Below, in pieces: positions 2,354-55,317 of a stretch of 64,000 nucleotides of DNA. The stretch comes from Rhizophlyctis rosea (taxonomy: Eukaryota; Chytridiomycota; Chytridiomycetes; Rhizophlyctidales; Rhizophlyctidaceae), in the NCBI GenBank assembly GCA_027596075.1, contig JADGJC010000068.1:62001-126000 (forward strand), read 5' to 3'. The translations under genes and the position numbers were made by a program. A model generated the notes under the pieces. The model searched no databases, had not been told where the DNA came from, and saw only the letters and a list, made by a program, of their open reading frames with translations. Numbering within the stretch: the stretch's first letter is position 1; each line of letters opens with the position of its first letter.

Positions 2354-4042
2354 TCAAATCTTGCCCACGCCAGCATTATCGATCAACGAACTGAGAATGG
2401 TTGCCGTGCTATCGGCAGTGTAGGAGTAAGGCGGTGACGAGAAAGTTCCTGCGTCGCAAACCGCAGAACCGCCACCGAGGTCATTGTCGACTAGAACGAG
2501 CCGTTAATTCATGGTAATCAACTCGGCCCAAAGCAGTTCAGATCCTTGGTAACTTACCCAACACGCAGTAACCTCCATCACTCCTGACATCCTTGTTGAT
2601 ATTCCTGAAAACATTCTTCTCAATCAAATTCTGAGAACCGTCACGGACGTTGATCTGCAATGGGCAGGGAAAAGTAAAGAGATGTAGAGACCCAAACGAT
2701 CAGAAGAGAGAACCGCACGAGCCAATGGATACCACTTACGCAGTTAGTAACATTATCGTAATAGTTATTATAGATGTGTGTGGTCCCAAAACGAATACTG
2801 GGAGTTCTCGATCCGACTCCGTTGAAATAGTTGTGATGAACTGTCACCTTGATTGCCGCATCTTCCGTAGCACTGTCGGAAGACCCGAAGAGGAGGGCTT
2901 TATGATGATTGTGGAAGTAGTTGTAGGAGATAGTGACATAGGTTGCTTCGCGGGTCACGTCAATCAAGCCGTCGTAAACGTCTTTGTTGGCGTTGATGTC
3001 GCCGGAAAAGTCGCAGTGATCGACCTGTTGTGATGGTACGGCGGCGTTTTAGGCTTCGCGTGAATTGTGTCAAGGTGAAGGCATTTTCCATTACCCAAAT
3101 GTTGGAAGTTCCGGGATCTTTGATCGTGATGCAGTCGTTATCGCCACCAGTGCAAAGAGCTGAGATTCAAGTAATGACGATTGTCATGATCGATAGCTCA
3201 GGGCAATACAATAGGAGCAGTTGACTTACTAAACTTGATGTTTCTGACAATGACGTTCTTCGTTCCATGGCGGATTGACAGAGAACTCTTGTCCAGCCAA
3301 GCCGTCGAGCCCACCCCAATGAGACTGAATTTAGACACACCGGCGAGCATTAGTCTCCCAATACGTGGGGGTGATTAGGCCACTTCCAGATGCAGGTACT
3401 TGCCTCTTGTTGGACCCGACGGTAATGTTTCCGGCATTGGATAGAGCACCGTTGAAGTACACAATACGTGGGCTGTCATCACTAAGAGCGGCCTGAAGTG
3501 CAGACGCAGTCGAAACCGTCACTGTCGGGCCTCCAGCACCGCCGCTGCATCCGCTGCCGAGAGTCGCGAATCCCACGACACCCGAAGTGGAAATCCCGCC
3601 GCCGCCACCCGGTGCAGTTGTAGTCTTGGGAGGCGATACGGTGGTGGTCGTCGTCCTCGTAGTGCTCACTTGCTTAGTGGTGGTGGTAGCAGTGGTTTTG
3701 GTCGTTTTGGTAGTGGATACGGTAGACGTCTTGGTAGTTTTGGTCGAAGAAGCCGAGCTGCTAACCCCGCTGCCCGGAATGCATTGAGAGTAATCTGCGG
3801 TAGCATAAAGTGGTCAATAAATTTGTCGAAATTTCATCAAATTTGTCGAAATTTCATCACTTATCACCGGACTCAATCAATCAAGGCGACTACTTACAGG
3901 GGTTTGAGTAAGTGCAAGTTCCGGAGGAACAGGTGGTAGAACCGGTGTATCCCTGTCCACCACATTGACCGTAGAGAGGGACTTGGGCGATCACGGATGT
4001 GATCGATAGGCCGTAGAGCGCGAAGCCAAGAAGTTTTGTCAT
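2354..4042 (-). CDS. secreted pectate lyase, PL1, with N-terminal CBM1
   Basis: Cleaves polygalacturonate by beta-elimination outside the cell. Seven exons (3898-4042, 3404-3794, 3230-3324, 3095-3159, 2740-3024, 2558-2654, 2354-2490) give a continuous 404-aa protein. Order: signal peptide from [14 protein letters not shown]1 ([11 protein letters not shown] to YYSQCIPG), a Ser/Thr/Lys linker of about 40 residues, then the PL1 beta-helix. PL1 marks are VGSNKSLIGVGS, the Ca-binding DNDCITIKD and VYDGLID stretches, [12 protein letters not shown], and the substrate/catalytic Arg motif RTPSIRFG. Intron 2 uses a GC donor (GCAAGT) at 3403-3398; only this donor keeps the frame and restores the family consensus. 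The start is fixed by the signal peptide. It heads the pectin locus. Confidence 0.93.
3821..3859. repeat. 20-bp tandem duplication in intron 1 of the PL1 gene
   Basis: Two adjacent copies of ATTTGTCGAAATTTCATCAA lie inside the first intron (last base differs in copy 2). They make up much of the intron and have no coding effect. Confidence 0.85.
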
Positions 4043-4125
4043 GTTTTGAAGTTTGAAACTCGGAGAGGAAGAACTGACGCTCGCACTCGTGAGGATTCCG
4101 ATATTGACACGAACCAGAGCGTCCG

Positions 4126-4133
4126 CCTTTTAA
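4126..4133 (-). promoter_or_regulatory. TATA-like box of the PL1-CBM1 gene
   Basis: TTAAAAGG on the minus strand, about 85 nt upstream of the ATG. The divergent PL3 promoter has a similar CATAAAAGGG at a similar distance. Confidence 0.35.
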
Positions 4134-5508: not shown

Positions 5509-8500
5509 CTACTTCCGCCACTTCTCCCCACTGGGAAAGCTCCACTTCACCAAACTCTCCCTCTTCATTTCAATGCTATACCCAGGGTCGGTCGGCGCGA
5601 CGTACTTTCCGTTCTGGATGATGCACGGGTGGACAAAGTGCTCATGTAAGTGATTGACGTACTCGCAGATCTGGAGGGTGCCCGAAATGATGGCGTAATC
5701 GATCATGGAGAGGTGTTGGACGTATTCGCAGAGTCCGACGCCGCCCTAATGTGATGTGGGGAAAGGTTTGGATACGACGTTTGCCCTCCGCGGTAACACA
5801 ATTTTGTGAAGGACGGAGACAAATACATACCGCATGTGGAACAATCTTCTTCCCAAACTTCTTGGCCAACAGCATCACGCTGATGCATTCGTTGACAGAG
5901 CATAACCGGCAGGCGTCGATTTGAACAAAGTCGATGGCGTCGAGTTGGAGAAGTTGTTTGAAAACGATGCGGTTTTGGATGTGTTCTCCTGTGGCGATCT
6001 TGGTGTGCGGGTAGAGGGCTTGACGGATCTTCGCGTGGCCGAGGATGTCGTCGGGGGATGTGGGTTCTGTTTGTTACGTCAGATGATCTGTGTTCGGCGG
6101 TGCTATCGCAAGTAAATAGATCGACTGCGCACCTTCAATCCACAAAGGCTTGAACTTCACCAGCTCCTGCATGTTGTCAATGGCCTCCTGAACACCCCAC
6201 ACTTGATTGGCGTCCATCATCAGCGTCGCGTCATTTCCAGCAACTGAGCGTATGAGAGCAGCACGGCGAATGTCGTCTTGCAGGTTTCCGCCAACTTTTT
6301 GCTTGAAGTGCGTGAAACCTTGGGCCTTGGCCTCAGCGATCAAGGTGCGGATTTTGGTGTCGGAGTAGCCTTATTTTTGAACGAAAGTGTTCGAAGAATT
6401 AGTTGGTTGGGCTGAACACACAGGATAACGTTTCAAGATCAATTTGGAAGTAAAAATGCTTACCCAACCATCCGGCACTAGTGGTGTACGCTGGGTATCC
6501 CTCTTTCGTCAAAAGGTCAACCCTGGACACCTTTGTCTTCTCCTGTTCCTTGAGAATGCTTAGCGCCTCCTCAGGCGTCAATGCATCCTCAATGTACCGG
6601 AAATCAATCAGACTGACGACCTCCTCGGGTGTCATGTCGGTGATGAGTTTCCATAGTGGCTTCCCGGAGACTTTTGCCTTCAAGTCCCATAATGCGTTAA
6701 GAACTGCAGACGCCTGCGTAGGGTTTATCACCGAAATGTCAGTGAGTATCGAGTCGTTGAAGACGAGAGTTTGCTTTAATTCAATCCGAGCACGACTACT
6801 CACCCCCATATGTATGGCTCCCTTCTCCGGTCCCAACCAACGCAGTTGACTATCGTGAGTCAACTCTTTGTACGTCTTTCCCATATCGTTGATCAATTCG
6901 TCCAGAGGTCTGTTCACCAGCTTTGCTGCAACCGCCCGAATAGCGGATACTTGCACATCGTTGCCGCGGCCCAATGTGAAGGCGAGACCATGGCCAGATA
7001 ACGAGTGCTCGGATGTCTTCAGGATGATGTAAGCTGCGGAGTAGTCAGAGCTGCGGAAATTGAACGTGGTCAATCAACAAGAACAGGCAGAGATGACTTT
7101 ACTCTCAACTTACTCCTTGTTCATTGCGTCTGAACCATCCTTCTTGAGGGAGGTAGGGAACCGTACATCGAATGTTTCAAAACCCATTAGCTGTAGACCC
7201 TCCTGTGGGGACGTATCCGGAATGTGGAAACTGGTTTCGCTGATAGCAGGAGAGGAAGCGGTGCCCGAATCGGAGGCGGTTTCCACATCCACAGGTTTTC
7301 GTAACTGCGTGTCTAGAAATCAACATTTTTCTCCCACATAGGTAGATATGAAGAGAAACAACGCTTACTCCTTTAGCGATAGCAATCTCTGTAGCATACC
7401 ATCCACTCATTCCTATGATATCCGCCCCAATGGAGACCATTTGGAAACCTTGCTGGCACCGACGAGCAGCGCTAGCTCCGTCATTTGCCCAGATGCCGAC
7501 GTACTTGCCGTGAGCGCGTGCTGCGGTCTTGATTCTGTCGAGGGCGGCAACAACTTTCGGCGAGTAGTTTTCAGAGGAGGGCGGGAAGCCCAAGTCGGCT
7601 GCCAAATCGTTCGGACCGACGAAAAGCATATCTGCACAGCAATGTGTGATGCAAAGGTGAGTGATACTTTTGATTTTAAAATGACAGAAAGGAATGGAGG
7701 GGACGAAGGAAGGTTCTTACCAATGCCAGGCACAGCCGCAATCTCCTCCACGTTATCCAACCCTTCCCTCGTCTCAATCTGGACAACGACCATGATTTCG
7801 TCATTGGCAGAGTTGACATACTGGGCATTATTGCACTTCCAAGCAGCCGTGCAGAACGGACCGCCATGTCCACGGTTCCCTAACGGAGGGAACCGTGCCG
7901 CTTTGACGATGGCTTCTGCTTGCGCCTGAGATTGGAGGTGTTTAGTTGATCCAAAGCCGTGATAAAATCGGAAAATCCGCGGTTGCTTACCTTTGTGTTG
8001 ACCATAGGTATCACGATACCATGAGCGCCCGTATCAAGGACACGTTTGATCATCCAGGAATCTCCAGCAGGTAGACGAACTATTGGTGATGGACCCCAAG
8101 GTGCGATACTGTTGACGGCATCGTTCATAGCGCGATCATCCATGTGCCCGTGTTCCATGTCCACCAAGATCCACTAATGTTGATGACTGTCAATTCAGAA
8201 GAATGTTGGGCGAAGAATCATCCACTTACGTCTAGACCCGTTCCCGCCATGAATCTGCTAACGGTGGTCCCTACAATGGCCATGTTGGAGGCAGGGAGAT
8301 CAGAATGCGGATCAGAGCCATTTAAGCGATCCGAAGGCCAGACGACAAATTGCAACGCCAGTACCAAAAACCACCTACCAGGAATCATCACCCATGCTCC
8401 GAAGGAGCATCTTCCTGTTTCCAAAGCCCTCCTCAATGTGTTTACATTTGGATTGATGCCGGCACCGGTGTGCTTTGCATTTTCCGTCATGAATATGGGT

Positions 8501-8613
8501 TCAGCGTTGCCATACCCGAGAACCACACTCTCCTCGGATATGGACGGAGAGGGATATGATGTAGTGGCATAATCTGCCGCTTGCATGACGGACGCAACAG
8601 GAACACCCGACAT
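5509..8613 (-). CDS. bifunctional fusion: HpcH/HpaI aldolase + enolase-superfamily sugar-acid (L-fuconate-type) dehydratase
   Basis: Eleven exons (8379-8613, 8230-8270, 7991-8173, 7721-7925, 7369-7631, 7114-7304, 6804-7050, 6464-6713, 6133-6369, 5831-6066, 5509-5745) join to one uninterrupted 774-aa frame. Residues about 55-309 are a class II HpcH/HpaI aldolase: VDMEHGHMD (catalytic His), PIVRLPAGD (Arg), and the metal ligands in VVQIETREG and FVGPNDLA. Residues about 310-344 are a Ser/Thr-rich linker. From [13 protein letters not shown] onward it follows human ENOSF1 (L-fuconate dehydratase): KxK in FKQKVGG, metal ligands in [18 protein letters not shown] and ATGEH, the Asp in QIDACR, and the His in PHAGGVGLCE, so all active-site residues are present. 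The family dehydrates L-fuconate, L-rhamnonate or L-galactonate; the aldolase family splits 2-keto-3-deoxy acids to pyruvate plus aldehyde. Successive pathway steps are thus joined. The exact substrate is unknown. Alternative: two genes, if the exon 5-6 splice is not used. Confidence 0.88.
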
Positions 8614-9997
8614 ATCAAAAGGGATTGCCGTTCGTTGGGTGGAACTTTGGAAGGAGTTTACGGGAGAGATAGGGACGAGCCAACGATTTAAGGGAATGAA
8701 AGAGAAGAGTCAATTTTAAAGAAGGTAATGGGTGACGACAACTGCAGATATCTATCAGCACTGTAACGGAGAGTGGCGGGGGGCGGATCAAAGCACGCCA
8801 TCAAAATTTGTATGTGGTGCCGCACGGGAAGACGTCCGTGGAATCAATAATTGGGGATGGTGGGCGATGATGATCAGTAGGGAGTGGCCATGTCGAAATG
8901 AAGGAAGACGGAAGACACCTTCACCGGGCCGTGAGGGCGGCACTCGGTGCAACCCGGAACTTTGCTGTCGAAGACGGGGCTTTGTGATGCAGCACTGCTA
9001 TGGGTATGTCGACAGGATCATTACACCGAACGACTTGCAGTACAGTACAAACCGTTTTGCTTGTCCTTCACAATAGACGCTGACTTACACCTCCAAATGA
9101 CCTTGAAGATGATTGCTAGCTCAAGTCCCCCACTTCGCTGAGCGGGTCCCATTATATTTCCCAGGCCCCCCGCGTAGCCCCCCGCCTGTCCCAGTGACCA
9201 GCCAATTCTGGTCATGATTGTACTACACTTCCTAGCTACTGCACCGCGGAGCCACCTGCCACCGGTGCACCCCTTCATGGAACAAGACGAGAAGATGGGT
9301 GGCAGGAATATCTCAAGGCTCCGCTGGAAGGGGCCCCACACGGGTCGTTCATTTCTGCATACACATCTTGAACGCCACTAACGGCGCGGTTGCTCTTTCG
9401 ACTCTTCCATCTCGGAACCCTCCGCAGGCCCCCTTCCCCAGTTTTCCCGCTCCCTCACCCTGCCGACTTTTTGCCCCATAAGGAAAGGAGAAGAGCACGG
9501 AACACGCCACGTGGGTAACGACGCTAAGATCTGAGAGTGGCGACACATCTACATTACCGCCTTCTTGCCGTACTGACCCAATCTCAGCAACGCAGCTACT
9601 GCGCTTAAGCTACGACCAGTACACACTGAACAAGAGTTGAATACCATTCTTCGAACATTCCATATCCTTTTGAATCATGATATAGACGATCTTTTCTCCA
9701 CTTTGACCCTAAAGCGTCCCCCGCGTAGCTGCACATGTGCTCGGGTGGCCATCGAGGGTGGGTTTGCTGGATAGAGTCACCGACCGTATCAGACCCAATC
9801 GCCTCTTGCACCCCACCTTTTTCCAAGCCTGCGGCTCTTTCTCACGTTAACTCAACAACTTTACAACCAAAAAGTCCTCTTTCACTCGTCCCAGGCAGTG
9901 GAAGGATGAGACCTTTCTCACCCTATTTAATGAAGATACGTCCATTTCAGCCGTGTTCGAAGATCATCCACTCGTACCCTTTACAAACGAGAACACC
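8614..9997. other. divergent promoter region between the fusion gene and GH28
   Basis: Shared 1.4-kb upstream region of the minus-strand fusion and the plus-strand polygalacturonase. It holds two GYGGGGGGCY sites near 9164-9185 and a TATA-like CTATTTAA at 9923-9930, about 70 nt before the GH28 ATG. No other gene is visible. Confidence 0.55.
9164..9185. promoter_or_regulatory. paired GYGGGGGGCY motif sites, divergent promoter
   Basis: On the minus strand, GCGGGGGGCC and GCGGGGGGCT lie about 12 nt apart (C-runs at 9166-9171 and 9178-9183). They are placed to act on both the fusion gene and GH28. Confidence 0.4.
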
Positions 9998-11640
9998 ATG
10001 CGTCAACTATTCGCCGCTCTCAGTTTGATGGTCCTGCTCTTGGCTGTCGTCAGCAGTCTTCCAGCCTCCAACACCCCCAAATTCAAACCGTATGTCGGTC
10101 AGCCTCGCGTGCACCCATTCCCCCCACAGTCCCGCAACGTCGTCATCAACTTAGAAGCTTCCAAGAATGCAACTGACGACGTCCCCGATCAGTTCTTGAG
10201 CGCTTTGCAGAAGGCCAATCATGGCGGGAAGGTGGTTCTCGCCAAGGGAAAGACTTTTGTAATTGGGAAGAAGCTTGATTTGACCTTTTTGGATAACGTT
10301 TATGTCCAACTTGATGGCGAGATTTTGGTGAGTTCCATGCACTCGCGCCTCAAAAGGGGATGCATCATCCTAACCAATACTGATGCCTACAATCTTCTCA
10401 TGCCAGTTCACCAACGACACCACATACTGGCAAGCCGACGCCAACCACTTCTACCACCCGTTCCAAAAGTCCATCACCTTCTGGCAGTGGGGTGGGAAAA
10501 ATATCAAGCTCTACGGCAAAGGTACCATCAACGGCAATGGTCAAGCATGGTACGACGGCTTCGCAGGAAGAGAGATTCTGGTAAGAAGAAAACATCTATT
10601 GCACCATCCGGCAAGCTCTTAACCATTCTCCATAGAACCCCAACAACACCTATTTGCGGCCGAATCTGTTCACTATCTTGAATGCGGAGGGATTCTACAT
10701 CGAGGGCATCACTTTCAAGAACTCTCCGTGCTGGACCACGTTCTCGATTGATTCCAAGAACATTACATTCAAAGATGTTGATATCGTTGCGCATTCTTCT
10801 AACAAGGTTGGGGACGGGCTCTTGTTCACATCACCGGGCACCGATTTGGTATTTATACTCACCTTCCACAATTTAAATCACAGAACCTCCCTAAAAACAC
10901 CGATGGTTTCGACACATACAACGTGGATGGCTTGACCGTCCTCAACACCAACGTGGACATCGGAGACGACTGTTTCTCGCCTAAGCCGAACACCACCAAC
11001 GTTTACGTTCGGGGCCTTCGGTGCAATGGTCCGTTCTCATCAATCCCCTTTCACTCACCAGCATTTGGCATTTGGTCTCACCGGCAACCCCAAATCTTAC
11101 ACAACACCTACAGGAACCCACGGCGTCTCCATGGGCAGCATCGGTCAATACGCCGGCGTCAAAGACATAATCGAAAACGTCTTCGTTGAAGACGTCTACC
11201 TCTCCCACGGCCAAAACGGCGCCCGTCTCAAATCCTGGGGCGGAATTGGGCACGGCTACGGCTACATCAACAACATCACCTTCAAAAACTTCCAAATGAT
11301 CGACACCGACTCCCCGATCGTCATCGATTCCTGCTACTTCAACATCCCGGCAGCGGAATGCGCCGCCCATCCGTCGCAGGTCAACATCACTAATGTGTCG
11401 TTGCAGAACTTCAGGGGTACTTCGTCTGGGAGTCGCGGCAGGATTGTATCGCAGCTTACGTGTTCTCCGGCTGCGGTTTGTAAGGATATTCATTTGTCTA
11501 ACATTCATATTGAGTCGCCTGTTGGGGAGCCGGCTGTGTTTGTTTGTGATGGGGTTACCGGTGATACAGGTTATCCATGTGTCAGCATCAACTCCACGAT
11601 CGCTAAAGATGCTTTGAGTGTGAAACTCCCCGGTCATTAG
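9998..11640 (+). CDS. secreted GH28 glycoside hydrolase, exo-polygalacturonase-like
   Basis: Hydrolyses galacturonan ends outside the cell. Five exons (9998-10327, 10407-10580, 10636-10848, 10884-11028, 11114-11640) give 462 aa. The signal peptide is MRQLFAALSLMVLLLAVVSS; an in-frame ATG at 9953 would put 15 residues before it, so 9998 is preferred. GH28 marks in order are NLPKNTDGFDTY, IGDDCFSPKPN, THGVSMGSIGQY and ARLKSWGG (the NTDG, G/QDD, G/SHG and RIK boxes). The KPN after the DD box and the CNGTHG context look most like exo-polygalacturonases. No CBM1 is attached, unlike the lyases. Rhamnogalacturonan hydrolase activity cannot be excluded from sequence alone. Confidence 0.93.
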
Positions 11641-13539: not shown

Positions 13540-14829
13540 ATGACCATCACCTCTTGCTACCACGGCTACGCGGCCCACGCGCCGAAGTCCGATCTCCAGC
13601 CCTTCACATACGAGCCGCTCCCACTCGGTCCCGAGGACGTCGAAATCAAAATCTCGCACTGCGGGATATGCGCGTCGGATATTCATACCATGGATTCAGG
13701 ATGGGGTCCTACGCAGTATCCGGTTATAGTTGGTGAGTTTCAGTGATGAAGAAGAGTTCTATTACGTGTGGGATGTTGGGGCTTACTATTTCATCTTCCC
13801 CCTTGATGAACAGGTCATGAAATCGTCGGCACGGTCACCGCTGTTGGACCCGAAGTGACCGCACTCAAAATCGGCGACCGTGTGGGTGTTGGGGCTCAGC
13901 AATACGGCTGCTTGCAGAGCGATTGCCAAGAATGTCAAGAAGGTCATGACAACATGTGTCCTCGAATGTGGTGGACCTACAATTCCAAACGGCCTGATGG
14001 ATCCGTCACTCAAGGCGGCTATGCGGACCATATTCGTGTTCGCCATCAGGTGTGTTGTTGGAGCGTTCTTTCAACGCATTATTTATTTGTAAACAAAACT
14101 CACTATATCATATCGACGAATAGTGGGCTTTCCCAATCCCCGAAGCGATCGATTCCGTTTCCGCCGGTCCTCTGCTTTGTGCGGGTCTTACCGTGTACGC
14201 ACCCCTTGCTCGCGCAAACATTGGTCCCGGGAAGAAAGTTGGGTGAGTGAGAACATTGGGTTTGCTTTGTCATTATGTGTTCGAAAATGTGCGTGGCCAA
14301 ACAAACATTCACTAATCTTTGGACCCATCTGCCTTTCAGCGTCATCGGCATCGGCGGTCTAGGCCACCTCGCTCTCCAATTCGCCGCCGCTCTCGGCGCA
14401 GAAGTAACAGCCATCTCCCACTCCCCCTCCAAAAAAGCCGAAGCCCTGTCCCTCGGCGCAACGAACTTCATAACCCTCTCATCCCTCCGCGACCACAAAC
14501 GCGCATTTGACATCATCGTCGTCTCCGCCAACCACAAGGGCCAGGATTGGGGTACTTACCTCACCGCGCTCCGCCCATTCGGAACCCTCATTCTCGTTGC
14601 GCTTCCGGAAGAGGATATTAGCGTCACGCCGCACTTCTTCACGGGCACGCAGGTGTCCATTACCGGTAGTGTCATTGGGAACCGGAAGGAGATGAGGGAG
14701 ATGTTGGAGTTGGCGGCTGCGAAGGGGATCAAGCCTTTGACGCAGACTGCGAAGTTGGAAGAGGTCAATGGTGCTTTGGAGAAGGTGCGGAAGGGGGATG
14801 TGCGGTATAGGATGGTGTTGGAGATCTAG
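13540..14829 (+). CDS. zinc-dependent medium-chain alcohol dehydrogenase (ADH6/cinnamyl-alcohol type)
   Basis: Reversible, probably NADPH-linked aldehyde reduction in the cytosol. Four exons (13540-13732, 13814-14049, 14124-14242, 14340-14829) give 345 aa, normal for the family. Catalytic-zinc ligands are seen in HCGICASDIH and VGHEIVGTV; the structural-zinc loop is CLQSDCQECQEGHDNMCPR. The Rossmann glycine motif is GIGGLGHLALQFA, and the segment after it resembles NADP-preferring CAD/ADH6 enzymes. Placed between GH28 and PL3, it could reduce the L-lactaldehyde or L-glyceraldehyde made by the locus aldolase; that link is inferred from position and chemistry. It runs tail to tail with PL3. Confidence 0.9.
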
Positions 14830-15738: not shown

Positions 15739-16860
15739 TCAAACACATTGAGAGTACCAGTCGTTCGAGAACTTGCAAGAGGAGCCGGATTGGCAGCATT
15801 TTGGCCCGGTCCAGCCTTGACCGCCTGGAAATGTGTTGCAAATGGATGAGAAAGCGATATTGGTGGCGAGATGACCTCGACAATATGAGATGCAAGAAAT
15901 GTCACTTACCGCATTGGCCGTATTTGGCCGCACAGCTGCCGGATGATCCGCCGGATATGGTGGTCGTTGACGCCTTAGTAGTGGACGTCTTGGATGTCTT
16001 GGTGGTGGATGTCTTAGACGTTTTTGTCGAGGTTGTCTTGGTGGTAGATCCACCAGAACTACCGCCACCGTACGTAGTAACATCCGACTCAGAGTAGTTG
16101 CAACCTCCACCAGGACCAGACCCAACCTCACTCGGCTCGCCAGACGTCACACCCTTATACTTCGCACAAATCTCCTTCACAGAGTTAACCTGGATGCCCG
16201 AAAGAGTGGTGGAGTCGCCCAAGTTGGGGTTGATGCCGGCAATGACTTTGCCCTTGACGGCTACGATGTTGCTGAAAGTGGATTTGCGGGCGTATTGCGT
16301 CTTACAGTTGCCGCAGGAACGGTAGAGCTTGCCAAAGTTTTCGACGTAGAAGTCGGAGAGGGAGAAGGAGCCGGAACCGTTGTGTTGGAAGACTTTGTCT
16401 TCGGCGCCGCGTGCACCGCCGCCGATTACAGTTACGGACCCGGAGCCCTTGATTGTGAGGGCGTCTTCGCAGACGTCTTCCCACCAGACGTTCTTGACCG
16501 TGCAAGCGCCGAGGCAGTAGACACCCTCGCCCTAACAGTGAAGTAGTGATCAGTGATTGATGCAGTATTGACAGAGGTGAATTTCCGAAACTGTACCTGA
16601 TCAGCGCCAATGATGACATTGGAAAGAGTAGCACCATCCTGGAGAAGGAACATGGTGTCCTTGTCTGTGCCCTCAGATTGACCTTGGCAGTAGCCAGATT
16701 TGCGGTTGTAACGCTTCATGCCACCGTCGAAAGACCCGGTAACAGTGATAGGGTCGGCAGACACGACAGTGCCAGTAGCGGTGGGGAAAGTGGTCTGCAC
16801 AGCAGCGAGAGCGGACCTTGCCATGACGGCGGTGGAAAGGGTGATCAGAGCAGCTTTCAT
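15739..16860 (-). CDS. secreted pectate lyase, PL3, with C-terminal CBM1
   Basis: Beta-elimination of low-methyl pectin outside the cell. Three exons (16597-16860, 15910-16531, 15739-15824) give 323 aa. The signal peptide starts at MKAALITLSTAVMARSALA (ATG at 16860-16858; the upstream in-frame ATG at 16959 would bury it). PL3 marks: GEGVYCLGACTVKNVWWEDV, EDALTIKGSG, DKVFQHNGSGSFS, and the Cys-rich YRSCGNC. A repetitive Ser/Thr/Lys linker leads to a CBM1 ([15 protein letters not shown] to WYSQCV). Intron 2 falls inside the CBM1 glycine codon of CGG. A TATA-like CATAAAAGG lies at 16948-16956. The gene is divergent to the next PL1 gene. Confidence 0.93.
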
Positions 16861-18130
16861 TGTGGGATTGAGAATGCAGATGGATAGATGGGGGAGAATT
16901 GGGGTAGGCACAGACTGGTGATGATGGCATTGGGATGATGGACGTGCCCTTTTATGCAATTTTGTACAGGAAGCGTTTGGATATTACTCTTTGACATTTT
17001 TCATGCTGAACCTTCGCGATTGTCATGAATGTACTATCCGTCGATGTCTAACCCCACATTTCCTTCCGACTCCATCTCGCGCGAGTCTTGAGATGGACAT
17101 GCTCGGCGTACGCGGGTCGTAGATTCATCGTTTCAACGCCACTGCGCATAATAGGTGTGGGAAAAGGTGTGCCGCTCTATTTTAAGTTCGTCCAAACCTT
17201 GCTTCGCAACATTGAGAGGTTGGGCAGTGACCACTTGATCCACTTGAGCGGGTGAACTTCTAATTTGGAAACTGACGCCATCCCCAGGTTGGATAAGGCT
17301 CTGTGAGTTACAACCTTTTGGGTGAGCGGTTTGAGTATTATGCTAGTCGTTGCGGGTGGACCACTGTCATGGGGAGCATATTAGGTGCGTGGGGGGCCTA
17401 TTTAGCGCCAATGTGGGTGGTTATCGGAGGGTGGGGGGCCTAGCGGAGGGTCCGTCTCACGCGAATGAGTCAAGCTTTGACATTCTGAAATGTGAGGCGC
17501 ATATGTATCACGGAGTGGCGCCCATTTGTTGGTTCTCATTGCCATGTCGGTAAAACGACGCTTGTGGTATTATTGGGTTTTAGTGAGTTAGTAGAGTAGC
17601 ACTGTCCTTGAAAGGTTGTTTACTTTCTCATTCAACTCACTTACGCTGCGTGGATGATTTGCTTGATTTGCACATGCTCCGAAATGCACCGGGTCGATAC
17701 AACACTGTCAAAAGCCTGCCTTGATTCGCCAAAGGGGAGTGATATCTTCTTGACACTCCTTACGCCGCCTGAGGAAGCCATAAACCCTCATCAATTCGTT
17801 TTTCGCCAGGGTCCTGTTTTCATCATGGTCATCGTCAGGTGATTTCCATTGAGCCCCCCGCCGTTCTCCACAGTTTGCAATCCACACCAAAAACGCTTCG
17901 CAGAGAACGCATACTTGCTGTGGCGACGAAAAGTTGCAATTCGTGCTTCGGAGTATCTGCTGTCCTTCAGAAACACAACACCAAAAACCAACTCATACTG
18001 ATTGCTCCTCATTGCCACTGAGTATGCAATTCCAGTTTGATTTAAACGGCTGTCACGAGCACTTTCCCTCTCCCAAGTCACATCGCTTGCTCCAACCACA
18101 TCCGCTCAACATCGTCTCCAATTCTCCAAA
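16861..18130. other. divergent promoter region PL3 / PL1
   Basis: 1.27 kb shared upstream region of two lyase genes. It holds three exact GYGGGGGGCY sites (17389-17398, 17431-17440, 17852-17861) and a TATA-like element for PL3 at 16948-16956. No gene is visible. Confidence 0.55.
17389..17861. promoter_or_regulatory. three GYGGGGGGCY motif sites
   Basis: GTGGGGGGCCTA occurs twice on the plus strand (about 17389 and 17431) and GCGGGGGGCT once on the minus strand (17852-17861). They are spaced to serve both divergent lyase genes. Confidence 0.45.
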
Positions 18131-21740: not shown

Positions 21741-23872
21741 ATGGTCGGAGGAGGAGGTGTGATTGTCAATGTGCCTTACGTAACTCACATTTTGGATAAC
21801 ACTTGAATATCATCCATTGCAGGCGGATTCGCAGTCGATGCGTCGGCTTTAGAGCGGCGGTTCGCAACCATCCCAGCAAATGTACCTAAAGCGGGTCTCC
21901 TCTATGTCTATCTCACGGCCGGATTCGCTGGCGTGGGTGGTTTCATTTTCGGCTGTGAGTATATCATGTTGCATTCTGTTTGCCCACTCTTGCAGTCAAA
22001 AACTCCTCTGACCCCACTGCCTCCCGACACGCCAGACGACCTAGGCGTAATCGGATCCATCCTCGGCATGCCCATTTTCGTCCAATACTACTACACAGAC
22101 AAAGGCAAAGACCTTTCAACCTACACGTTCGACAAATCATGGATCGTCTCCTTCTTCGTTCTTGGCTGTTTCTTCGGCTCATTCGTAAACGGGTGGATGG
22201 CGGACCGCATTGGACGGAAACGAACAATCATTGTTGGGTCGATTGTGTTCTGTATCGGTGGTGCGATCCAGACTGCTGCTGTCAATGTTCCTATGCTTTA
22301 TGTGGGGCGTATGATTGCTGGTCTTGCTGTTGGTGGTTTGTCGGTATGTATGAACCTCAATACAGGATATATTAGCGGATGATTCCTGAATGGCTTGTGT
22401 CTTCTTTTCAATCAGATGATCGTCCCCATGTACCAAGGTGAAATGGCTCCTGCCCGCCTACGTGGCGGTCTCGTAGCCATCCAACAGCTGATGATCGTCA
22501 CGGGTGTCGCTGCCGCTTTCTGGATTGACTATGCCTGCAATCTCCGATTGAGTAGGAGCCAACTTGCATTCCGGCTGCCGCTCGGGTAGGTTCATTTGGA
22601 AAGATGGCATCTTCGCGAAAATGAGGACCATGGAATGGACATTGAATATCCTGATCCAATGCACAGCATCCAAGTCGTCGCCGGCCTGATCCTCGCCATC
22701 GGCATGGCCTTCATGCCCGAATCCGTCCGCTACCTCATCAAAACTGGCAACACTGAGCAAGCGCTGAAAAACCTCGCCTTTGTTCGTCGGATTCCCGCGG
22801 ACAATCAGTATGTCCAATACGAATTTGAGGAGATTGTGTCTGTGGTGGAAGCAGAGATGGCGGTTGGGCAAGGGCGTTGGAAGGATCTGCTTTCAAAGGA
22901 TATTCGGAGACCGTTGATTATTGGATGCTTCTTGCAAGCGGCGCAGCAGTTGTCGGGTACAAATGCGACGACGTATTATGCTATTTCTTTCTGTAAGTGT
23001 TCCAGAACGATTTTGTTTTTATGCATGGTGGGGAGAGAGATTGGTTCAGATTCCTCCACTCTGTATACATTTTTGCTGGCCGCATCGTGTGCTCACACCC
23101 TTCCTTGCTGCCTCAAACATAATCACAGACAAGATACTCGGCATCACGGATTCAAACACTCAACTACTCCTCCAAGGATTCTACGGTCTCGTCAAAATCG
23201 TCGGTACCTTCCCCGCTCTCCTCTTCCTCGATAAATTCGGTCGTCGTGCCTTCCTCATAGTCGGTGGCATCGGTATGGCAACTTGCCAGTTCGCGCTGGG
23301 CATCCTCATTCGCGTCGAAGCAGGCAACACCGTCGGAGCAGCGGTGCAGGCGGCGTTTGCCGGCAAAGATGGGTTGGGCAAGTTTGGGGTTTTTCTGATT
23401 TGGGCGTATATCGGATTCTTTGCTTGGACTTGGGGACCTATCCGTAAGTCATCTTCGCTTCCTCATCCATAGTGATGAATCTCTCCAACCTTTTTTGCAA
23501 TGTGCCCAAACAGCCTGGGTCTACAACGCCGAAATCTATCCAGTCCGCCACCGCTCCAAAGCCATCGCCCTCGCAACTGCCTCCGACTGGCTTGGTAACT
23601 TCATCGTCGGGCTTGCCGTACCAACCTGGTTAGAAAGGTCGGCGTACGGTCCCTTCTTCTTTTTCGCCGTCACTTGCGCCATCGGCGTGATCGTCACATT
23701 CTTCTTCATCCCCGAGACGAAGGGTATTTCACTGGAGGAGATGCCAGCTAATTTCCAGGGATCTATTTGGCAGGTTGGGAAACGGAAGGAGAGACGCGAG
23801 ATGGTGGAGGATGCTCATGTTGGAGACCCCATTGCTCCTTTTCCCTCAGACAGCAAAGTTACCGTCGTGTAG
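21741..23872 (+). CDS. MFS sugar transporter (SP family, 12 TM)
   Basis: Proton-linked import of a sugar or sugar acid across the plasma membrane. Seven exons (21741-21756, 21823-21954, 22036-22343, 22416-22585, 22667-22992, 23129-23443, 23514-23872) give 541 aa. The first exon is only 16 nt (MVGGG); its donor was chosen because it alone keeps the frame. Family motifs: FIFGYDLGVIGS in TM1, the loop motif NGWMADRIGRKR, MYQGEMAPARLRG after TM4, QQLMIVTG in TM5, PESVRYLI before the central loop, the TM7 QAAQQLSGTNATTYY, LDKFGRRA, and the closing PETKGISLEEM. The substrate cannot be read off. Its place at the end of the pectin locus suggests a uronic acid, rhamnose, fucose or a pectin-derived sugar. 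Confidence 0.9.
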
Positions 23873-50934: not shown

Positions 50935-53900
50935 ATGCCACCAGGCCCCACAAACGCCTCAGGCTTGCGCTCACGGAAGGTCGACTTCAAAAAGTCTCTC
51001 ACGGTCTATAGGTGGAATGAAATAGACCTCAATGATACGACACCGCTCAATAGGACCCAGGCCCAGGTCTCTACCGGTGTTGAGAAGGAGGAAGAGGAGG
51101 TTAGTATATACGCATTGTGACTTTTTTTGTGTCGGCATTTCGAGCCCCATCTGTTTTGGCTTGGTCGTGCGCCGCGGTAGCCGTGGGAAAATTTGGGTGG
51201 TGTGGCGCAGCCATGGCAAGGGAGGACGCGTTTTTGGACTGCACTTTCCCACGATGACCCAACGTGGCATCGTCCGCACCACTTGCTTCACTTCCTTCTC
51301 ATGGCATCGGCATAGGCATCGGCATCGTCCTCGCACCATATGATGGGGCGTGCTGTTGGGTAGTTGAGGGTTAGGTGGTGGGTGAATGGGTGGTGCGAGT
51401 GAAGGTGTGGGAAAGGTGGAGTTGGTGGACTTTGGGCCGGGTGTGGGAACATATTCCCACGCTTTATCTCTTCTCACTCAATGTCTATATCCACTGCATC
51501 CATCAACAATTTTATTAACCCCGCCTTGTATCGTTTACCCTAGGAACACCACCTCCAAGCAGCCCTCTACAGCACAACCCACAACACCGCCCCCGTAGTA
51601 ATCCCCACGCCCGATGCATCGAAACTCATTCCAGACTATTCCACCCATTACCCGCCGACCTTCTCGCAACCCAAGTCCCTCATACGCTTCTCTACACAAG
51701 TCGAAGATGTGATTGGGTGTCCGTATAATTGTGATGAGAGGGATGATGGGTGGAGGGACGAGTTCAGGGAGAGGGTTGAGAAGGGGGAGGTGAAGGTTGA
51801 GGAGGAAGGTGTGAGGGTGGTGGGGGATGATGATGAGTTTGAGAGGTGGATGTGGGCGCTGGAGAAGTGTGGGGATGCTAAGGTTGGTCCGCGTGCACGT
51901 GCTTTTTGTAACATGGGAGGTGGGTGGGGGGAGTTGACCAGCGGAGATGAGGGACCAGAGTGCAATGAGGGAGCACAGTGTTTCGTGGTGCGGGAAGCAC
52001 ACAGTATGGAGGGCGCCAGCCCGACGTGAGCGTCAGTGAACGGATCGCGAGCGAAGCTCGCATAATTGCGCGTAGCGCACATTCTCTTTGGGACAAGGCA
52101 ACAATCAATACATAACACTCACATCACACAACACAACAGGTCTCGGGCGACGCACCAACCCTCCAAGAATGCGAATCCCACATCCTCTCCGACACAACAA
52201 ACGCCCCCTCCATCACCATCCCACACCCGGCCCTACCACACATCTACGAGCACTGGAAGCAGAGGCGGTATGTCGAACGCGGTGGGAAGGGGATTATGCC
52301 GAGGCTGAAGGTGCGTTCTGATGACATTCATCCTTGATGTTGTTTGTTTTTGCGGGGGTAGAAAATTAAGGAAAGCTAAATTCAATTTTTCACAGTCCGA
52401 AAAGGACGCCCCCCTAACCTCCGACTCCGACCCCTACATCTGCTTCCGAATCCGTGAAGTCAAACCGGTGCGGAAAGCTCGTCGGTGCGACACTCAATCT
52501 CTTGAGAAACTTCGCCGATTACGTGACGAGATGACGAAGGCGAAGGAGATTTTGGAAATGGTTACTAAGAGGGAGGCGACGCGGAAGGAGAGCGTGAACT
52601 TGGAGCATTTGATATTTGAGCAGCGGGTGCTTGTAAGGAGGCTGAAGAAGAAGCTTGGGGTTGCTGTTGGGGGGGAGGATGTTGGTGGGGGTGTGGGGGG
52701 GAGGACTGGGGGGATGGGGGAGGGAGATGAGGGGAGGAAGAGGAAGAGTGTTGGGAAGGGGTATGTTTCATTTCTTGCATTTTCTTTCTTTCTTTCTACC
52801 CTCCATTTTTTCTTTTCACTTACGTACGATTCTTTTTTTTTAGCTTGGTCCCCCGAATCCGCATAGCAACACAAAGCATCACGTCGAACGCGTCTGTTCC
52901 CGGTGGGGCGGAGTTGGGGGGTGGAGGAGAGGGAGGGGAAAGAGGGGAAAAGGTGCAGGAAGTTAGTCCGATAAGTGAGGGTGCTAGTTGGGGGGAGAAG
53001 GTGAAGAAGATGGGGTTGATGGATTTGAGGGGTGGGGTTGTTGATTGCATTGAGGTATGTTTGGGGTGTTGCCTTTCATTATCATTATTATTCGTAGGGT
53101 TTTCGCGTTGTTAACATTTCGTTTTTATCATGCTTCTAGCACCCATACATAAACACCAAACCACCTGATGACCCGTATCGTTTCTACCGCCCTAACCTCC
53201 CCATAACCCTTCACCCTGCCCCATCCACACCCCTCTCCCCCTCGACACATACCCTCACCCATCGCATACCCTACGGCCGCCGTCGAATCGGGCGGGGAGG
53301 TCGTCTTCACTTCGACCGGCATGTTAGGAGGGGGGAGTGGGTACCGCAACGGAGGGGGGGTAAAAAACGGCCGTGGGAGGACGATGAGGGTGTCGGTGGA
53401 GAGGAGGATGAGGAGAGGTGGAGGGCGTGGGAGGGGAGGTGGAGGTTTGATTGTAGTGATGAGGAGGTTGAAGATGATGGGGATGGGGAGGAGGGGAGGG
53501 AGGAGGATGTTTGGTGAGTTTCCGTTCTTTCCTGTTATCGTTTTCGTTTATTCGTGCGTCGCGTTTTTGGACTAACTGGCTCGTTTATTTGCTATAGCTA
53601 CCTCTGGTACCGCTCCGCACACCTAAATCCCACACCCCGCGACCGCGAATACCGCCTCTTCGAAACACACCCTTCACACCCAGACCAACTCTCTATAACC
53701 GCCACACCTCTCTCCCAACGTCCACCACCAACACCCCTTCCACCACCAACCGTCATCCGCCTCCAGCCCCAACAACCCGTGGCCGTGCAGCCGGCTGCTA
53801 AGAGGGTCAAGAAAGCTGTTGAGGTGGGACAGCAGCGTGTTGGGCCGGTTGGGGGAATAGGAGGAGGAGTGGGTGTACAGCAACAGCAGCAACAGCCACC

Positions 53901-55246
53901 AGGAAGGGTTGGACGAGTCCCGGCGGATCCGAGGCAGGCGCAGATACAGAATATGTTGAAAGCTAGTCAGATGAATATGCAGAGGGAGCAGCAGAGGTTT
54001 TTGGGTGGTGGTGGTGGAGGGGCTTTGCCGCCGGGGACGCCGGGGACGCCGGGTGTGGGGGGACAACAACACGTGCAGGGATTGGTACAGGGACAGGGGA
54101 TGGGACAGGGGAGTCCGCCGCCTCCGATGCCGACGGGGGTGGGGATGGTGGGGGGTAGTCCTAGGGGTGTGGGTGTGGTTGGACAGCAGGGACGGGTGGG
54201 AGTTGGTGTTGGAGTTAATGGTGTTGGGACGCCGGGGACGCCGCCGGGGGTTGTTAAACGGGTCGGGGTACAGACGCCGGGGGTGCAGCAGCAGGGGTTG
54301 GTGTATCAGCAGCAACAGCAGCAGGTTCAGCAGCAGGTTCAGCAGCAGCAGTTTAGGGCGTTGCAGCAGCAGGCTGTGCAGCAGGCTCAGGCTCAGGCTC
54401 AGGCTGTGCAGCAGCAGAGGGGGCATCTAGGGGATGGGAGTGCGGGGCAGGGACAGACGGCGGGGGTCGTCGTACCTCCCACTCCAACACCCACAACAAC
54501 AACGACGACGACGACGACGACGGCGACGATCGGAGCTCCAATTACCACCACCACCACAACGACGACGCCCGCCGCGGTGACGACACCCCAACCGGGCACA
54601 CCTACACAACCGCAGGCATCACCGATAACGGTCTCATCAGCACCGATGATGACCATGAGTCAGGCTGCGGCTATACAGGCACACGCCGCTGCTGTAGCGA
54701 GTGGGACGCACACGCATACACCGTTGGGAACCGTGCCGGTTCCTGTTCCTGTTCATGCTGGGACGCCACTCGGCCTAATCCAAGGTCTTAACGGGGGCGT
54801 GTATTATCCCTACCCGTATCCGGCGCTTTTCGGGGGTGTGGGTGCTGCGGCTGCTGCTGGTGTAGGAGTCAATGTTGGGGGGGTGGGGGGGAGGAGGGGA
54901 AGGGGTGGGGCGTTGGGAGTTCCGGGAGTGACGATGCATGGTGTTCCGGTTATTTATGCTGGGGCGGGTGTGGGCAGTCCGGGGGGGAGTCCGGGGGGGA
55001 GGGGAGGGGTTTTGGGGGGGGTGCAGCAGCAGCAGGTGCAGGTGCAGGTTAATGGGGGGAGGGGGAGTCCTGGGCCGGTGGTGGGGGTGGCGGGGCCGGG
55101 GGTTAAGAAGGTTGGGACGGCTTTGGTGGGTGGGGAGGAGGGGGGAGGGTGGTGGCGTGGGTCAGGTTGGGTATGCTGTGCCAGGTGCAGTGGATTATCA
55201 GAGTACTGCTGGGTGGGTGCAGCCTGTACAGGGTGTGAGTCGATGA
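50935..55246 (+). CDS. EPL1: Enhancer of polycomb-like protein, NuA4 histone acetyltransferase subunit
   Basis: Scaffold of the NuA4/Piccolo histone H4 acetyltransferase in the nucleus. Exons: 50935-51099, 51544-51882, 52140-52310, 52396-52760, 52844-53054, 53140-53513, and 53598 onward. The N-terminal Epl1 domain shows SRKVDFKKSLTVYRWNEIDL, STHYPPTFSQPKSLIRFSTQ and HIYEHWKQRRYVERGGKGIM. Then come DPYICFRIREVKPVRKARR and a long coiled coil (SLEKLRRLRDEMTKAKEIL to FEQRVLVRRLKKKLG), and the EPcA-type block DPYRFYRPNLPITLHP with YLWYRSAHLNPTPRD. The last exon (over 500 codons) is Gly/Gln/Thr/Pro low complexity. The end is uncertain: without further splicing it stops at 55317; a 40-nt intron 55126-55165 would give a stop at 55246 and a more natural tail (1,077 aa). 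Confidence 0.85.
53870..54600 (+). repeat. trinucleotide low-complexity tracts in Epl1 (poly-Q, poly-T)
   Basis: CAG/CAA runs coding Gln-rich segments (about 53878-53900 and 54292-54420) and an ACN run coding two blocks of eight or more Thr around Ala-Thr-Ile-Gly (about 54490-54570). These are likely length-variable microsatellites within the coding frame. Confidence 0.75.
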
Positions 55247-55317
55247 AATTGCAGGAATTAAGATTTGAGCTGTCCATCGTTGTTGATGTTATTGATAGTT
55301 TGCACTTAATTTGCTGA

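Follow-up and report, generated by a model that had tools for sequence, protein, structure and literature searches.

A predicted in-frame aldolase–dehydratase fusion gene in a pectin-gene neighbourhood of the chytrid Rhizophlyctis rosea

In the chytrid Rhizophlyctis rosea, whose genome comprises 44.1 Mb in 634 contigs, we examined a 64,000-nucleotide stretch of contig C595 (C595:62001-126000; hereafter the window), in which a minus-strand gene at 5509..8613 (ATG to TAG) is predicted to join an HpcH/HpaI aldolase in frame to an enolase-superfamily L-fuconate/L-galactonate dehydratase, in that order from the N-terminus. Its 11 exons (8613-8379, 8270-8230, 8173-7991, 7925-7721, 7631-7369, 7304-7114, 7050-6804, 6713-6464, 6369-6133, 6066-5831 and 5745-5509) splice into an uninterrupted frame of 774 codons closed by TAG, and all ten introns, 56–108 nt in size, are GT-AG, so that the single 774-codon frame proposed in an earlier note on this DNA is borne out. 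With Pfam scores judged against each family's curated cut-off, the frame contains HpcH_HpaI (PF03328) at residues 83–293 (134.4 bits, cut-off 25), MR_MLE_N at residues 377–479 (44.6 bits, cut-off 22) and MR_MLE_C at residues 548–759 (185.2 bits, cut-off 29.4). The NCBI protein HDV00_010946 (P0001, 672 aa) is 100% identical to the fusion and has the same exon 5–6 junction, an agreement that is not an independent test since HDV00_010946 is itself a gene model. Its start is a Met in exon 3, and the first 102 residues, including H100, are missing from it; the longer start in exon 1 is supported by the aldolase of a second R. rosea strain, HK097 (P0129), whose N-terminus aligns with that in the window.

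The aldolase half (exons 1–5, 7369..8613, residues 1–309) has H100, R125, E204 and D230, which align with the catalytic H45, R70, E149 and D175 of Escherichia coli HpaI at a constant offset of 55, and its N-terminal extension of about 55 residues is also present in P0129. Its closest matches among solved structures, at up to 161 bits, are aldolases of the HpcH/HpaI family. It thus shares family and active-site residues with HpaI, RhmA (YfaU) and GarL, but differs from them in being fused and in lying far below their NCBIfam equivalog cut-offs, none of which was reached by P0129 or P0001, the two proteins run in place of the 774-residue one. For HpaI, GarL and RhmA, respectively, the full-length relative P0129 scored 213.3, 165.4 and 162.3 bits against cut-offs of 368.8, 406.75 and 441, and P0001, without the N-terminus, 161.9, 138.3 and 130.9 bits. 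P0129 (314 residues) is 76% identical to the window aldolase, a value low enough to suggest that strains named R. rosea may be far apart.

The dehydratase half (5509..7187, from the 3′ part of exon 6 to exon 11) has K561, K563, D591, E617, E645, D668 and H695, the same in all 12 aligned sequences and presumably matching the KxK, the D-H and the three acidic metal ligands of FucD. Together with the four aldolase positions, these seven confirm in alignments the earlier statement that both halves retain all expected catalytic residues. Among solved structures, the top matches are of the L-fuconate dehydratase/ENOSF1 type (PDB 1yey, 2hne, 4a35 and 4ip4), which match over the full length at 528–538 bits with the same catalytic residues (dehydratase residues 2-425/427 align to 2hne at 531.5 bits); the next, L-talarate/galactarate dehydratase, reaches 108 bits. 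An AlphaFold2 model of P0001 built from 32 sequences (mean predicted local distance difference test score 83.7, predicted template modelling score 0.65) shows two folded regions and, between them, a stretch of low confidence at residues 189–240, with the dehydratase part mostly confident; low confidence at the aldolase end is not interpretable because P0001 lacks residues 1–102. Each half appears to be functionally competent.

The two halves meet at intron 5 (7305..7368, GTAAGC...CACGCAG, 64 nt), after which a possible Ser/Thr-rich linker of 39 codons (7188..7304, overlapping the low-confidence segment 189–240 of P0001) opens exon 6, and the nearest ATG at the dehydratase start encodes residue 349 (7185..7187; all on the minus strand). 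Eight aligned aldolase relatives terminate within about 16 residues of residue 309, near which the R. rosea frame has no stop: read unspliced, it continues for 63 stop-free codons to a stop at 7179-7177, beyond the ATG at 7187, and exon 5 is only 181 nt from that ATG. These distances bear on whether the gene models, ours and that of NCBI alike, have merged an independent aldolase with an independent dehydratase initiated at 7187. Taking as candidate acceptors the AG sites from 30 nt past the donor to the dehydratase ATG (n = 8), we found four in frame, with first exon bases at 7304, 7202, 7199 and 7190, introns of 64, 166, 169 and 178 nt, and 39, 5, 4 and 1 residues left before the Met. With the other four, the aldolase would end in a short tail of unrelated sequence (5, 41, 20 and 17 residues, for introns of 38, 56, 129 and 138 nt), as expected of separate proteins, but the 20- and 17-residue tails, like the 63 unrelated residues of the unspliced frame, all reach the stop at 7179-7177 and overrun the dehydratase ATG. 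Moreover, the 11 aligned dehydratase homologues start upstream of the residue-349 Met (the position of the start Met of one of them, P0002, is a Leu here), so that a start at 7187 would remove residues that they carry, and the first dehydratase strand in the AlphaFold2 model starts at P0001 residue 245 (fusion residue 347), two before that Met. Two proteins would nonetheless agree with the HK097 aldolase P0129, which is annotated by itself and stops 3 residues beyond the junction; with the codon score of the linker, 0.014 bits per codon, which 26% of 1618 stop-free non-coding windows match; and with P0122 of Entophlyctis luteolus, where the aldolase is annotated jointly with a Gfo/Idh/MocA oxidoreductase, suggesting that automatic gene prediction tends to run this aldolase into an adjacent gene via an implausible linker. 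On balance, separate synthesis of the two halves appears improbable, and the predicted frame probably yields a single polypeptide. Within it, the 39-residue linker after a 64-nt intron is the likeliest acceptor choice, although part or nearly all of it could be intronic; the Ser/Thr-rich linker exon described earlier is therefore retained with reservations, given three other in-frame acceptors and codon usage like that of non-coding sequence. An out-of-frame TAA at the donor, considered as a relic of a former stop, was dropped because TAA occurs in every GTAAG donor.

In the mechanism we propose, the C-terminal half would dehydrate an L-galacto sugar acid, most likely L-galactonate from pectin D-galacturonate, with L-fuconate as an alternative or side substrate, and the N-terminal metal-dependent HpcH/HpaI aldolase would cleave the resulting 2-keto-3-deoxy acid, perhaps after channelling, into pyruvate and L-glyceraldehyde (or L-lactaldehyde). 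The consecutive action of the two families assumed in the earlier note is supported, and its list of substrates (L-rhamnonate, L-fuconate, L-galactonate) can be shortened. L-Rhamnonate was set aside as unlikely, as the dehydratase half scores 79.8 bits against a cut-off of 393 with the NCBIfam RhmD model NF011968, the comparison being with this bacterial model and not with fungal LraC. Family membership does not separate L-galactonate from L-fuconate, and here the surroundings favour D-galacturonate. A pectate lyase with a CBM1 domain lies at 2644..4129 on the minus strand (Pectate_lyase_4 in 2644-3048 and CBM1 in 3893-4129, probably one gene), and a second pectate lyase (PF03211) at 15905..16983, also on the minus strand. 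On the plus strand are a GH28 (polygalacturonase family) gene at 9851..11637, of approximate extent given a Pfam match in 10936-11637 only, a zinc-type alcohol/aldehyde dehydrogenase at 13540..14829 (ADH_zinc_N in 14251-14826, start taken from the sequence) and a major facilitator superfamily sugar transporter (PF00083) at 21807..23869.

Outside the window, a homologue of the Gfo/Idh/MocA protein P0122 of Entophlyctis matches at C595:55758-57571, about 10 kb from the fusion, in a gene placed at L111:3782-5716 (C595:55782-57716). The sole other copy found is on contig C490 (L112:2594-4159), with a sugar transporter nearby, and with two copies in 44 Mb the chance of one falling within 15 kb of the fusion is near 0.14%. 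GaaA-type D-galacturonate reductases are placed in an NAD(P)-binding Rossmann family (PMC9192788). Both genes are candidates for such a reductase, this Rossmann family presumably being Gfo/Idh/MocA. A genome search with PF01408 gave seven loci on other contigs and no further pathway gene near the fusion. Also on C595, between the oxidoreductase and the window, domain matches place a C2H2 zinc finger (L111:7035-8543) and a fungal-specific transcription-factor domain (L111:9359-10000); the two (C595:59035-62000) possibly belong to one regulator gene running into the window start.

The pectin setting thus favours L-galactonate, with L-fuconate as the alternative. Were the fusion real but dedicated to L-fucose from fucosylated xyloglucan or rhamnogalacturonan II, it would convert L-fuconate to L-lactaldehyde and pyruvate, as could be argued from the L-fuconate dehydratases and ENOSF1 among the nearest dehydratase structures, at 528–535 bits, and from a separate dehydratase of the family on contig C154, which could serve the galacturonate pathway. 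Likewise, Aspergillus niger GaaB reportedly has 10 times the activity with L-fuconate that it has with L-galactonate (PMC12370193). However, the nameable neighbouring open reading frames encode pectin enzymes and not fucosidases (many others have no Pfam match), and a genome search for PF04909 (amidohydrolase-2, fuconolactonase-type) gave a single match, below the cut-off, although the lactonase step may be spontaneous. We regard a dedicated L-fucose pathway as unlikely, though less so than separate synthesis of the halves.

The C154 dehydratase (L015:3692-5134) is possibly an LGD1/GaaB orthologue. GaaB/LGD1 belongs to the same superfamily as the fusion dehydratase, and fungal GaaC/LGA1 aldolases are of the dihydrodipicolinate synthase family (DHDPS, PF00701), which is absent from the three Pfam families of the fusion. 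Since its aldolase is instead HpcH/HpaI, the fusion event would, if the pathway is right, have gone along with the substitution of one aldolase family for another. The single PF00701 locus that the genome search gave (C58:24569-25312) has 4-hydroxy-2-oxoglutarate aldolase as its nearest solved structure (173.5 bits), with 3qfe ('putative dihydrodipicolinate synthase family protein') close behind at 162.2 bits, so that the genome may or may not have a GaaC/LGA1 orthologue. We put forward only tentatively, as less likely than not, the fuller proposal that an HpcH/HpaI class II aldolase stands in place of GaaC/LGA1, bringing steps two and three of D-galacturonate breakdown onto one polypeptide, and that this lineage-specific arrangement, derived from a chytrid gene cluster, reveals the role of the numerous fungal HpcH aldolases that are as yet unassigned.

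In the fungal pathways covered, those of Trichoderma reesei and Rhodotorula toruloides, the two enzymes are separate, as the earlier note had stated. According to PMC6918025, gaaB and gaaC homologues adjoin in R. toruloides and gaaA–gaaC are paired in ascomycetes. GaaB/LGD1 and GaaC/LGA1 thus resemble the R. rosea system in catalysing two consecutive steps and in being encoded by neighbouring genes in R. toruloides, but are separate proteins, and the R. rosea aldolase is of the HpcH/HpaI family. Proteins of fused architecture were sought with searches that rely on shared five-residue words and could miss a distant fusion. With the aldolase half and lengths limited to about 425–1354 aa, 9 matches came from 4826 candidates, and MR_MLE domains occur in only one of the 9, that of R. 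rosea; the domain order that the earlier note had thought worth seeking in other fungi was thus found in none of these long matches outside R. rosea. With the whole fusion (8000 candidates scored), the 119 others among the best 120 are dehydratases alone (430–458 residues), as are the solved FucD/ENOSF1 enzymes, whereas the R. rosea dehydratase is a C-terminal half. The literature searched, most subscription journals lying outside its reach, gave no description of an aldolase–dehydratase fusion. The families are known, but their combination in this order was found nowhere else in these protein and literature searches.

The nearest precedent in kind is bacterial RhaEW, described in PMC3870299 as an L-rhamnulose-phosphate aldolase fused to L-lactaldehyde dehydrogenase, with both activities verified. 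Like the R. rosea protein it is a natural fusion of an aldolase with an adjacent-step enzyme in deoxy-sugar breakdown, but it involves other families and a phosphorylated pathway, and its aldolase is joined to the following enzyme, not the preceding one. R. rosea itself has a paralogue of the aldolase, 67% identical and with the same four intron positions, in HDV00_012759 (P0121, contig C633), where it is also fused but lies C-terminal to a DUF2264/DUF2264_C partner, with the DUF2264_C/aldolase junction inside one uninterrupted exon (L013:1272-2711). HDV00_012759 spans L013:158-3841 and is annotated as partial, its matched part starting near the start of the contig. P0122, with its oxidoreductase, was not counted as another true example of such a fusion, since its middle looks mistranslated.

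Four other chytrids (Nowakowskiella, Cladochytrium tenue, Entophlyctis and Zopfochytrium) list the aldolase and the dehydratase as separate proteins. In Nowakowskiella sp. JEL0078 each enzyme (aldolase P0130, dehydratase P0002) is listed on a contig of 7,570 bp, and in Zopfochytrium (P0133, P0005) on one of 272,678 bp; from these equal sizes we infer a common contig in two of the four species, where the two genes are probably linked. The contigs differ in C. tenue (2,975 vs 4,859 bp) and Entophlyctis (10,208 vs 96,286 bp). In a dehydratase tree of 20 rows, the fusion half groups with Nowakowskiella, Cladochytrium, Entophlyctis and Zopfochytrium (support 100/99). In an aldolase tree of 18 rows, the window and HK097 sequences group together (support 94/93; branches 0.16 and 0.056), the deeper forks being weak and a long-stemmed couple of Ktedonobacteria adjoining the pair. 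We propose that the fusion originated within the lineage of R. rosea, where the aldolase of a linked gene pair would have lost its stop and become spliced to the dehydratase. A bacterial operon as the source of the pair was rejected, as an HpcH aldolase lay within 6 kb in 1 of 80 bacterial loci of dehydratase relatives (the best 80 of 591, 20 of them with shortened flanks, in a search with a profile hidden Markov model built mostly from fungal sequences). That the junction arose by artefact, through a chimeric contig or a base error removing the aldolase stop, is scarcely credible: it has been seen in a single sequence, and the contig is 161,817 in the protein database vs 154,341 in the genome, but both halves lie on one contig and the nearest relatives of both are chytrids.

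We put at roughly one in two the probability that the R. rosea gene encodes one bifunctional enzyme for L-galactonate (or L-fuconate) that arose in this lineage from linked genes. Several observations weigh against it. Besides the missed aldolase equivalog cut-offs, the linker codon usage not distinguishable from that of stop-free non-coding sequence, the stand-alone aldolase of HK097 and the single bacterial locus with an HpcH aldolase nearby, C595 carries beyond the oxidoreductase an ankyrin-repeat frame and an ATP-binding cassette transporter that do not fit with pectin. No dehydratase of HK097, Nowakowskiella JEL0407 or Cladochytrium replicatum is among the 120 best matches of the fusion, and as these three have a listed aldolase, not all chytrids show the pairing. 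The C154 dehydratase is a second family member on a long tree branch, its contig having no HpcH match. Finally, measured from the node shared by the chytrids, the path to the fused dehydratase is 0.52 changes per site vs about 0.29–0.35 for the other four, and the fused dehydratase differs in 9 of the 180 columns that do not vary among the other 11 sequences, none of the nine catalytic (they include G327S and P344K, dehydratase numbering); the same count for those 11 is 0 in five rows, 2 in five and 13 in one (Bifiguratus). The fused protein has thus evolved somewhat fast, through relaxed or changed constraint. Taken further, the longer path, these changes and the C154 paralogue could mean that the dehydratase half of a real fusion is losing function or has changed substrate, the paralogue performing the pathway step. 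Yet the rate excess is modest, the frame and catalytic residues are intact and the AlphaFold2 dehydratase part is mostly confident, and we consider such decay or change quite improbable, more so than a division into two proteins.

Fusions reveal which enzymes act jointly, and a fused L-galactonate/L-fuconate dehydratase would, if true, give a testable role to this HpcH aldolase group; of the best 120 relatives of the aldolase half, about 100 are named from fungi, mostly with generic or differing functional names. According to PMC5674754, the L-rhamnose aldolase of A. niger had yet to be identified in 2017, and the authors suggested that it may be of another family than LRA4; L-rhamnose enzymes found since are mentioned in a 2022 paper (PMC9781776). 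If true, the bifunctional R. rosea enzyme would also show that a fungus of an early-diverging lineage has exchanged an enzyme of a central route of pectin breakdown for a non-homologous one, and would provide a natural catalyst of two successive steps for converting pectin waste.

Two minor observations concern other loci. At 53518-55314 of the window lies an open frame of 599 codons that matches no Pfam family. Elsewhere in the genome, a short PF03328 match of 29.6 bits at C443:111245-111376, to which the window aldolase gave no tblastn match, is probably another member of the aldolase family.

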